Source: a virus
Length of the DNA stretch: 26,294 bases
Direction: 5' to 3' (one strand)
Virus record (IMG/VR): IMGVR_UViG_3300025655_000245
Coordinates: 1-26,294 of that record
Shown here: positions 820 to 21,307 of the stretch, piece by piece
Layout of the letters: each line of letters starts with the position of its first letter
Numbering within the stretch: the first letter of the stretch is position 1
Notes under the pieces: model-generated
The model's database searches: none
What the model was told of the DNA's origin: nothing
Seen by the model: the letters and a program-made list of their open reading frames with translations, nothing else
Program-made: the position numbers and the translations under genes

Positions 820-1104
820 ATGAAAGACTTTGACTTAAAAAAATACCTTAAAGAAGGTAAATTGTATGAGATTGAGTCTTTAGATGATATTAAGTCTATA
901 GAGGTTACTTACACTGAACGTGGGCGTTTTTATAAAATTGATGTTGAATATAAAGATGGTTCTAGTGATAATTTTAAAGATATAAATGCTTTAGGTATTG
1001 ATTTGCCTTATCGTTATAGTAATTCTAGTTTAGAAAAAATTGCTAAAGAAATGGAGCAAAAAGGTATTATGTTTAATTATAATGATGCTTTTGATCCTTC
1101 TTAA
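820..1104 (+). CDS. Hypothetical protein, 94 aa
   Basis: A small acidic and lysine-rich soluble protein starting MKDFDLKKYLKEGKL. The central part alternates charged and hydrophobic residues (SIEVTYTERGRFYKIDVEY), suggesting a small beta-sheet. The start is the first ATG in frame, 21 nt after a promoter -7 box and preceded by an A/T-rich leader (AAATAAATAAATG). It forms a one-gene transcription unit, because an intrinsic terminator starts 26 nt after its stop codon. I do not recognise a family. Confidence 0.75.
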   Translation: MKDFDLKKYLKEGKLYEIESLDDIKSIEVTYTERGRFYKIDVEYKDGSSDNFKDINALGIDLPYRYSNSSLEKIAKEMEQKGIMFNYNDAFDPS

Positions 1105-1130
1105 GAAAAAAATTATAAAATGATTGTAAG

Positions 1131-1157
1131 AGGGTTTGGCTATGTCAAACCCTTTTT
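1131..1157 (+). terminator. Intrinsic terminator that overlaps the next promoter
   Basis: An 8-bp perfect stem AGGGTTTG (1131-1138) pairs with CAAACCCT (1146-1153) around a 7-nt loop GCTATGT, followed by a T-run (1153-1157). It should end the transcript of the 820-1104 gene. The last four bases of the left arm, TTTG, are also the -33 box of the next promoter. The same architecture with the identical loop recurs at 12471-12499, with compensating changes in the stem. Confidence 0.85.
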
Positions 1158-1166
1158 GTATATTTA
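1135..1166 (+). promoter_or_regulatory. Promoter embedded in the terminator hairpin
   Basis: TTTG at 1135-1138, 20-nt spacer, TATATTTA at 1159-1166, with the downstream ATG starting at 1187. The spacing equals that of the stand-alone promoters in this window. The spacer contains the hairpin loop, right arm and T-tract of the terminator. It should start the operon 1187-2327. Confidence 0.75.
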
Positions 1167-1186: not shown

Positions 1187-1393
1187 ATGATAAAAATTAA
1201 TTCAAAATTCCAACACTTTATCGGTAAAAAAATTGAATGTATTAGTCGAGGTAAACGATACGTTGGAACTTTACAATTTGCAGGTGTTAATGGTTTGCAT
1301 GGACAATTCCAAGTAACTGTTAATAGGATGCCAATATGGCCTGTTAATCCAAACACAATTAAACTATATCAACATTGGTCACAAGAATTATAA
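1187..1393 (+). CDS. Hypothetical protein, 68 aa
   Basis: A short basic soluble protein with several beta-type stretches (KKIECISRGKRYVGTLQFAG, then FQVTVNRMPIWPV). The size and alternation could fit a small SH3- or OB-like barrel, but no family is recognised. The start follows the leader AAAAAGGTTATG typical of this phage and lies 20 nt after the -7 box. It is the first gene of a four-gene unit; the next gene starts 4 nt after its stop. Confidence 0.75.
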   Translation: MIKINSKFQHFIGKKIECISRGKRYVGTLQFAGVNGLHGQFQVTVNRMPIWPVNPNTIKLYQHWSQEL

Positions 1394-2006: not shown

Positions 2007-2327
2007 ATGAAATTTAACGATAACCCGTATTATTCACCCGAAAAGTGTAATTTAGAAATTTTTATAGATATTGATACAGCAGGTTCTTATGAATTTGATA
2101 TGTTTGCAATATGGAAAAAACTTGATGATAATACACTTTGGTGGGACACTGACAGTGGTTGTAGTTGTCCCGTACCATTTGATAATTCAGACAATGGTCA
2201 TGATTTAAAACCAATTACTAAAGAAACTTGGTATTCATTTACAGAAGCATTAAAAAATCATTATAACATATCACAGCAAGATATTTTAAGAATTCAAACT
2301 AAAGTAAAAAATTATTTGAATATATGA
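2007..2327 (+). CDS. Conserved phage protein with DSGCSCP motif (DUF7574-like)
   Basis: A 106-residue protein. The N-terminal NPYYSPEKCNLEIFIDID, the central YEFDMFAIWKK and the motif DSGCSCPVPF strongly resemble a small protein family common in phages of many hosts (DUF7574, from memory). The closely spaced cysteines could bind metal or sit at a surface, but this is inference. ATG 2007 is chosen because it leaves 1 nt after the previous stop and begins where the family similarity begins; an in-frame upstream codon at 1947 would lie deep inside the previous gene. Its last codons overlap the next promoter. Confidence 0.75.
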   Translation: MKFNDNPYYSPEKCNLEIFIDIDTAGSYEFDMFAIWKKLDDNTLWWDTDSGCSCPVPFDNSDNGHDLKPITKETWYSFTEALKNHYNISQQDILRIQTKVKNYLNI

Positions 2328-2346
2328 AATATTTTTCTTATCTTTA
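2315..2346 (+). promoter_or_regulatory. Bacteroidota-type promoter cassette
   Basis: TTTG at 2315-2318, 20 nt, TATCTTTA at 2339-2346; the ATG starts at 2366. The -33 box lies inside the end of the preceding coding region. The spacer part ATATGAAATATTTTTC is shared almost exactly with the promoters at 2607 and 3381. Confidence 0.85.
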
Positions 2347-11019: not shown

Positions 11020-12444
11020 ATGTTAACATTTATCGGACTATTAGTAATCACCTTAGGTATTACAGCATTAATTTGGAATAACATCAAACGACAAAAAGAT
11101 GCTGAAGATATTAAAAACCAAGAGTATAATGAGAGTAGAAGAGATTCTTATTACCACAAACGCATAGTAAATATGCCAGCCTTCCCAATTGGTATGAAAC
11201 CATTATATCTATTCATTATAGGTATTGCTATCATTGGATTAAACGGTTTATTCTTTTGGGCAAATGCAGGAACAGCATACGCAGTTCAGTATCCTTGGGG
11301 TGGAGATAAAATGATTAAAACTCAAGGTTTGAAATTTATGGGATGGGGTAGAGTTATTCCTCTATCATATGAAATTTCAATTAAGGATATTATACCACAG
11401 GTAGATTCAGATGGTGATGAAAAACGTATACCAGAATCAGAAGATGGTATCTATAATCGTAGGTCATCATTGTGGGAGTTCTCAGATGCAATTAAAGCAA
11501 AAATTGCAACAGCAGTTGTAGTTGGTATTAATGTGGATGATGAAGAAGTATTCCTTAATATGGCAGACCGTAACCGAAGTGAATCTAAATTAATTCAAGG
11601 TAGGGTAATTCCAAATATTGATGCGGCTTTAAAGAATACTTGTAAGTTAATGGATGCACAAGAATATATCTCAGGTAAAGCATCTGATTTTGATAGATAC
11701 TTTAGAGACCAATTAGAAAATGGTATGTATTTAGTTGAAGAATATACAGCAGAATCCTCAGACCCAGAAGTGATTGGTGATACTACAACTATTAGAACCA
11801 TTAAAGCATCTAATACCAATAAACAAACCAAATATAGAATCAAACGAGATGAACAAGGTAATATTATGCGAGATAATAAATCTAATACCTTAAAACAATA
11901 TGGTATTGTTATTTATCAGGCACAGGTTACAGGTATTGATTGGGAAGATTCATTTGATGAAAGATTACAATTACAAAAAGAGCAGGTTGCTCAAACTCAA
12001 TTAGAAAAGCAAGAAGCTGAAAAAGAATTCTATAGAGCAAAGAAAGAGATTGCTAAAGGTGAATCTGAAAAGGCAGCTGAAAGAGCTAAGTTGGAAAAGG
12101 AACAAATCAAATTGACTATTGCAGCTGAAACGGAAGCTAAGGTTGCTGAACAGAATCTAATTGCAGAACGTAAAAAGTTAGAAGTAGCTAAATTGGCAGC
12201 ACAATCTAAGAAAGTGGCAGCAGATGCTCAATACTATGAAAACTCTAAGTTGGTTAGTGCGGGTTTAACTCCACAAGAAAAAGCTCAATTAGAATTGGAT
12301 AAAGCAATTGGTGTAGCAGCAGAGTTTGCTAAAATGTCAACACCACAAGTTATCATTAATAATGATGGTAATGGTAAAGGTGGTGATTTAACCAATGCAC
12401 TTATACAAGCTGAAATGGCTAAACGGTTAATTAATAAACAATAA
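11020..12444 (+). CDS. SPFH/band-7 family membrane protein, 474 aa
   Basis: Two N-terminal hydrophobic segments (about residues 1-20 and 62-82) are followed by a domain of about 200 residues with band-7-like features (VVVGINVDDEEVFLNM, VIPNIDAALKNTCKLMDAQEYISGK, IVIYQAQVTGIDWEDSFDERLQ). A long Ala/Glu/Lys-rich coiled coil spans about 320-415 (repeated EKEQ, AAE, AKVAEQ), with a C-terminal VIINNDGNGKGGDLTN segment. This is the organisation of stomatin/prohibitin/HflK-like proteins that form large membrane rings. Its role in a phage is unknown; membrane microdomain formation or protection of phage proteins from FtsH-like proteases are possibilities. Last gene of its unit, with a terminator 26 nt after the stop. 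Confidence 0.85.
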   Translation: MLTFIGLLVITLGITALIWNNIKRQKDAEDIKNQEYNESRRDSYYHKRIVNMPAFPIGMKPLYLFIIGIAIIGLNGLFFWANAGTAYAVQYPWGGDKMIKTQGLKFMGWGRVIPLSYEISIKDIIPQVDSDGDEKRIPESEDGIYNRRSSLWEFSDAIKAKIATAVVVGINVDDEEVFLNMADRNRSESKLIQGRVIPNIDAALKNTCKLMDAQEYISGKASDFDRYFRDQLENGMYLVEEYTAESSDPEVIGDTTTIRTIKASNTNKQTKYRIKRDEQGNIMRDNKSNTLKQYGIVIYQAQVTGIDWEDSFDERLQLQKEQVAQTQLEKQEAEKEFYRAKKEIAKGESEKAAERAKLEKEQIKLTIAAETEAKVAEQNLIAERKKLEVAKLAAQSKKVAADAQYYENSKLVSAGLTPQEKAQLELDKAIGVAAEFAKMSTPQVIINNDGNGKGGDLTNALIQAEMAKRLINKQ

Positions 12445-12470
12445 AAACTCTGTGTTTGTAACTATATGGG

Positions 12471-12499
12471 GGAGATTTGGCTATGTCAAATCTCCTTTG
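12471..12499 (+). terminator. Intrinsic terminator overlapping a promoter, second copy
   Basis: A 9-bp perfect stem GGAGATTTG (12471-12479) pairs with CAAATCTCC (12487-12495) around loop GCTATGT, then TTTG. Loop and architecture equal those at 1131-1157, while the stem differs with base pairing kept. It should end the SPFH transcript. The T-tract is short (three T), so read-through is likely. Confidence 0.8.
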
Positions 12500-12507
12500 T
12501 ATATTTA
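12476..12507 (+). promoter_or_regulatory. Promoter embedded in the terminator hairpin, second copy
   Basis: TTTG at 12476-12479 is the 3' end of the left hairpin arm; after 20 nt comes TATATTTA at 12500-12507. The only in-frame ATGs of the following gene are at 12512 and 12515, so a transcript from here would be leaderless or nearly so. Confidence 0.7.
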
Positions 12508-12511
12508 TAAA

Positions 12512-12649
12512 ATGATGAAAAAGTTAAAAGAAATAGAATTAACACAACACGAATGGTTTGATGCTCTTAAAGTGCCAACTCCTCATCGAAATAAGAAAAA
12601 ATATTTTCGAAAAGAAAAGCATAAAAAGGTTTGGAGTAGCGAGGGATAA
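12512..12649 (+). CDS. Hypothetical basic protein, 45 aa
   Basis: Encodes MMKKLKEIELTQHEWFDALK followed by a very basic half (PHRNKKKYFRKEKHKKVW). The coding frame extends upstream through the terminator, but that part cannot be sensible coding, so ATG 12512 (or 12515) is chosen. Only 4-7 nt separate these ATGs from the -7 box, pointing to leaderless translation or to reading from an upstream transcript. The basic composition could suit nucleic acid binding. The next promoter begins inside its last codons. Confidence 0.6.
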   Translation: MMKKLKEIELTQHEWFDALKVPTPHRNKKKYFRKEKHKKVWSSEG

Positions 12650-21208: not shown

Positions 21209-21241
21209 AAAGTCTTAAGTATTTTTTGTTGTTATTTAGGG

Positions 21242-21269
21242 AAGGGAGTACAATAGTACTCCCTTTTTT
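21242..21269 (+). terminator. Intrinsic terminator after nrdA
   Basis: GGGAGTAC (21244-21251) pairs with GTACTCCC (21256-21263) around AATA, extended by two A-T pairs, and is followed by TTTTTT (21264-21269). It is the strongest terminator of the window and closes the replication block. No composite promoter is built into it. Confidence 0.92.
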
Positions 21270-21307
21270 AATATTTATAATAAATTGTTTCACCTAAAAG
21301 TTTTTTT

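Follow-up and report, generated by a model that had tools for sequence, protein, structure and literature searches.

Promoter-early stem-loop (PeSL) cassettes reportedly occur in the phages RB49, phi1, PST and nt-1 (Arbiol 2010, Comeau 2014). Composite promoter-terminator motifs of this name are carried by T4-type phages, as noted in two reports (PMC4503421, PMC5931544), and the idea of a composite element is therefore not wholly new. In a related line of work, E. coli RNA polymerase was found to diffuse on DNA after termination and to reinitiate at nearby promoters in vitro (Kang 2020, PMC6978380). Here, we analyzed a stretch of 26,294 nucleotides (hereafter the window) that forms a piece of a virus record and encodes a gp32-like SSB, a UvsX-like recombinase, a DnaB-like helicase, ribonucleotide reductase and a T4-type RNA ligase. 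Judged by these sequences, the window is part of a T4-type phage, and its nearest annotated relative, a distant one, is Flavobacterium phage vB_FspM_immuto (immuto). The original prediction placed a terminator stem and loop holding TTTG exactly one promoter spacer (20 nt) before the -7 box TATATTTA at positions 1131-1166, and a second copy with the same loop and spacing on a different stem at 12471-12507; both are present as described (Table 1).

Like the PeSLs, these elements combine a compact promoter with a stem-loop terminator in an intergenic cassette of T4-type phages, with many copies and small genes. Promoter-plus-gene units are gained and lost between immuto and the related contigs L383, L348 and L431. 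In the 60-76 kb region of immuto, each such indel comprises a promoter together with a single small gene, the pattern to be expected if cassettes drive shuffling. The geometry of three RB49 cassettes, whose terminator hairpin stops 16-17 bp short of the -35 box TTGAC, is different, since in the present elements the stem contains the -33 box and the spacer is taken up by the T-run; the promoter type, a Bacteroidota-like -33/-7 pair, also sets them apart. Three sigma70-type promoters of RB49 (L289; at 25338, 33335 and 43031) have a perfect hairpin that fills the -35/-10 spacer without a T-run, as in TTGACA-GGGGATCGGTGATCCCC-TATACT, so the overlap itself has precedent. The superimposed terminator-promoter is a tighter version of the known T4-type promoter-terminator cassettes. 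It is best read as a variant of the PeSL kind and not as a proven member, because the -33 box is inside the stem, and it may be PeSL-like in action and descended from the same habit. As in intrinsic (Rho-independent) terminators, a GC-containing hairpin is followed by a U-rich tract past a stop codon; unlike in the usual ones, the tract runs into a -7 box and the left arm contains a -33 box. Our literature search, whose coverage was incomplete also for the PeSL originals, returned no Bacteroidota phage described as having its -33 box within the stem of a terminator.

The composite elements and their promoter family

In copy 1, the arms AGGGTTTG (1131-1138) and CAAACCCT (1146-1153) enclose the loop GCTATGT (1139-1145) and are followed by the T-run, with exactly 20 nt between TTTG and TATATTTA. 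Wobble and flanking pairs extend the helix to 13 pairs with a UAU loop. Its folding energy (hairpin energies throughout are predictions) is -15.8 kcal/mol, with a z-score of -5.5 and 0 of 200 shuffles equally stable, and the tract directly 3' of the hairpin reads TTTTTG, which is U-rich in the RNA. Copy 2, with its loop at 12480-12486, folds at -17.1 kcal/mol (z -6.2 versus shuffled sequence). Its T-run is short (TTTG, then TATATTTAT), giving a U-tract weaker than that of copy 1, and termination at copy 2 may therefore be weak. Both hairpins contain GC pairs and are far stabler than shuffled sequence, and searches of the window against Rfam and for tRNAs gave no match. Between 12500 and 12517, an ATGATG begins 5 nt past the -7 box of copy 2; because this box is so near the start codon, the copy 2 transcript is probably leaderless, as far as the distance from box to ATG indicates.

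Table 1 Positions of the composite elements, their flanking genes and same-family promoters in the window
Feature	Position	Strand	Remark
Copy 1 hairpin, predicted intrinsic terminator	1128..1156	+	core AGGGTTTG/CAAACCCT at 1131-1153
Copy 1 -33 box TTTG	1135..1138	+	within left arm of hairpin
Copy 1 T-rich tract	1154..1158	+	between hairpin and -7 box
Copy 1 -7 box TATATTTA	1159..1166	+	
Copy 2 hairpin, predicted intrinsic terminator	12466..12497	+	core GGAGATTTG/CAAATCTCC, lengthened by wobble pairs
Copy 2 -33 box TTTG	12476..12479	+	within left arm of hairpin
Copy 2 -7 box TATATTTA	12500..12507	+	
94-aa gene, transcript predicted to end at copy 1	820..1104	+	
68-aa gene, predicted to be started by copy 1	1187..1393	+	ATG 1187, 20 nt past -7 box
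Band_7-like gene, 474 aa, transcript predicted to end at copy 2	11020..12444	+	
45-aa small gene, predicted to be started by copy 2	12512..12649	+	
Same-family promoter without hairpin	2315..2346	+	internal control
Further same-family promoters without hairpin (starts)	2607, 3381, 4495, 6202, 7281, 10006, 12630, 25132		internal controls

Bacteroidota promoters have a consensus of TTTG or TTG at -33, a spacer of about 19-21 nt and TAnnTTTG at -7. The promoter of the window shares the TTTG and the TAtaTTT- core, and its N20 spacing fits this consensus; its last -7 base is A where the consensus has G. Within the window, TTTG-N(18-22)-TATATTTA occurs at six sites (0.43 expected), each of which is on the + strand and has a spacer of 20. 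In immuto, TTG stands at spacer 20 upstream of 34 of the 102 TATMTTTA boxes and upstream of at most 6 at any other spacer, and since this peak is sharp we take TTG-N20-TATMTTTA to be a real promoter there. The fixed spacer of 20 combined with TATMTTTA is unlike Bacteroidota promoters: no such peak was present in 800 kb of the Flavobacterium luteum chromosome (a single genome, which may not be the one that these phages infect), where 0 of 121 promoter-like sites had a hairpin of -10 kcal/mol. Across bacterial genomes, the window-type promoter matched at 52 scattered sites, and no strong hairpin accompanied any of them.

Seven of the non-hairpin promoters (2315, 2607, 3381, 4495, 6202, 7281 and 25132) carry the extended motif TTTGGATATnTGAAA or a near match. 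The perfect TTTGGCTATGTCAAA is found in the record only at copies 1 and 2, and differs from this extended motif at just two positions, A6->C and G12->C, which in both copies add one stem pair each; the outer arms are also complementary. The extended promoter motif, TTTGGmTATnTsAAA, is a near-palindrome whose inner pairs come free. Because the seven promoters without a hairpin share most of it, the common loop GCTATGT is largely the promoter's own extended motif, and the identity of the two loops is therefore no independent evidence for a hairpin.

Recurrence of hairpin-bearing promoters in related phages

We folded 644 distinct TTG-N20-TATMTTTA promoters from all phage loci fetched; since they were collected by sequence pattern and partly from related contigs, the counts given here are not fully independent. 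Hairpins with dG ≤ -12 kcal/mol were found at 75 of the 644 promoters, compared with 6.0 in shuffled sequences and 11.6 when left flanks were swapped between promoters. In registers 43/44, in which TTG directly precedes the loop, as at both copies of the window, 34 promoters reached this threshold versus 0.5 (shuffled) and 1.1 (flanks swapped), in line with the prediction that terminator and promoter are superimposed in one module. Two further geometries recur, a UUCG hairpin that has TTG at its base and a hairpin that has TTG in its loop, and across promoters the hairpin register is variable while the promoter spacing is constant. Many of the immuto promoters have a hairpin; conversely, TTG lies inside the hairpin in 10 of the 11 terminator-like intergenic hairpins of this phage that have such a promoter within 80 nt.

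The composites, 43 in number, come from 29 contigs or genomes, and 42 of them fall outside ORFs. The median distance between the upstream stop codon and TTG is 22 nt, and that between the -7 box and the following ATG is 26 nt. In composites of registers 43-45, the seven spacer positions nearest the -7 box hold on average 4.53 T compared with 3.35 (p=4e-9). The architecture recurs in relatives as foreseen; the exact hairpin followed by TATATTTA was found only in this window and one near-identical contig. For copy 1, this contig (3300025646_000185) was the only orthologue found. For copy 2, the closest relative that carries Band_7 (L464, 75% identity) has a terminator-like hairpin after this gene, and no TTG-N20 promoter was found beside it.

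The motif itself is more widely scattered. We gathered 66 distinct motif relatives from IMG/VR, most without a stem. The exact 15-mer alone occurs in 118 IMG/VR stretches, most without a stem and without a -7 box, and the majority of these look like chance matches and were set aside. A separate clade of marine T4-type phages (L039, L094, L095, L123, L031, L125 and L030) has the same 15-mer, TTTGGCTATGTCAAA, at the junction of gp19 and the next gene, within a GGGAG/CTCC-type terminator 3' of the tail-tube gene that is mostly followed by TATATTGRTATTTATA and lacks a standard -7 box.

Covariation and alternative readings

Covariation was assessed in 17 ungapped elements in the register of the window (44), picked by folding energy. 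TTGG never changes in the four -33 columns, whose partners vary by wobble alone, bar one unpaired cell; the six outer pairs vary on both sides, with 31 compensated cells versus 9.4 in shuffled sets, in agreement with the covariation that the hairpin had been predicted to display. The covariation score was 0.656 versus 0.355 shuffled (0 of 500) and dropped sharply on sliding the helix. Because these elements had been picked by folding energy, we added a second test free of such selection, in which promoters were picked solely by three inner pairs. All four outer pairs matched in 26 cases in register 43 and 25 in register 44, versus 8.4 and 6.9 after swapping, and in both registers the observed number was above all 2000 swaps; registers 38-42 and 45-49 were near chance.

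Orthologous sites show the stem coming and going. At the promoter in front of the immuto gene at 73379 and its homologues, no hairpin is present in immuto or L431, whereas the stem is GCCTC-TTCG-GAGGC in L383 and GCCCC-TTCG-GGGGC in L348, a compensated change. At another orthologous site, the hairpin is present in immuto and L383 and absent in L348. By these comparisons, the terminator would be an optional overlay on a retained promoter. The case for selection on both functions, which had been argued from the two copies of the window, is supported in that compensated stems recur in 29 contigs or genomes; the identical loop, being promoter motif, drops out of that argument.

These data bear on three other explanations. 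If the promoter alone were functional, the inverted repeat would be a by-product of its near-palindromic motif in AT-rich DNA, and such a motif does supply inner pairs at no cost, while most promoters in both the window and IMG/VR have no stem. Yet the long GC-containing outer arms in registers 43/44 are ~30- to 70-fold above the shuffled and flank-swapped controls, the outer pairs covary and T-tracts are enriched, which together make a promoter-only origin improbable. The converse, that only the terminator functions and the -33/-7 match is fortuitous with late-type promoters lacking a -33 box nearby, we judge very improbable: the N20 spacing peak is sharp, TTTGGCTATGTCAAA fits the extended motif of the non-hairpin promoters bar two positions that both build the stem, and the -33 TTGG is invariant while the remaining stem varies. 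In its favor, the terminator in the gp19 region of relatives lacks a -33 box in its stem and is followed by ATATTTATA, and the L039 clade carries the 15-mer in a terminator that has no standard -7 box. Binding of a dimeric phage regulator to an operator that overlaps the -33 box would account for a two-fold symmetric site that spans the promoter with a core identical in copies 1 and 2, but we reject this reading because the arms vary freely within one genome as long as pairing is kept, which a sequence-specific protein would forbid, and the hairpin register also varies and the T-rich tails point to termination.

Proposed mechanism and genomic context

We therefore favor, with a probability of roughly 80%, an intrinsic terminator and a promoter superimposed within a single stretch of ~36 bp. 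The sequences themselves show the two signals and the constant geometry that links them, as well as recurrence, covariation and an intergenic position, and we infer that both signals are functional and that the element has an insulating role. Polymerase exiting the upstream gene would transcribe the inverted repeat, and the RNA hairpin with its U-rich stretch would release the transcript while polymerase covers the promoter spacer. Holoenzyme would read the same bases as duplex, recognizing TTTG (-33) and TATATTTA (-7) 20 bp apart, so that a new transcript would begin just downstream and leave the hairpin out. In this way each gene or small gene group would be insulated from its neighbors and have a start of its own. 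The termination half of this scheme draws on the established mechanism of intrinsic termination and the initiation half on promoter anatomy. Such elements could have evolved by lengthening of the promoter's existing near-palindrome (TTTGG...sAAA), with the -33 bases staying fixed and the outer stem free to vary in compensated pairs.

In comparison with the recycling described for E. coli (Kang 2020, PMC6978380), the promoter of a composite would sit at the termination site itself. Polymerase might then stay on the promoter after RNA release and restart there, a relay that we consider unlikely; if true, restart in place would couple successive phage genes by local polymerase recycling and not by fresh recruitment. 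The composites offer a clean natural system for asking whether a just-terminated polymerase can reinitiate on the spot. They would also represent natural 36-bp insulated promoters for Bacteroidota, and they suggest that selection can act on the same bases both as a promoter box and as a terminator stem, and that across a widespread group of phages it has done so repeatedly and in a constant geometry.

The genes of this genome are nearly all in one orientation, and the phage of the window and its relatives are thought to have Bacteroidota hosts. The terminase of PP395634 (Microcystis phage Mel-JY01) shares 51% identity with its counterpart in a Flavobacterium phage, and the stated Microcystis host may be wrong, the actual host perhaps being a co-cultured bacterium. 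In most immuto-like contigs (among L209-L288), a terminator hairpin 3' of gp19 (the tail-tube gene) is closely followed by ATATATTTATATATA or a similar sequence, a candidate late promoter. At 21236-21290 of the window, the strong hairpin GGGAGTAC/GTACTCCC (-18.8 kcal/mol with flanks) and a T-run lie 3' of the ribonucleotide reductase genes and are directly adjoined by the late-promoter-like ATATTTATAATAAATT, without a -33 box.
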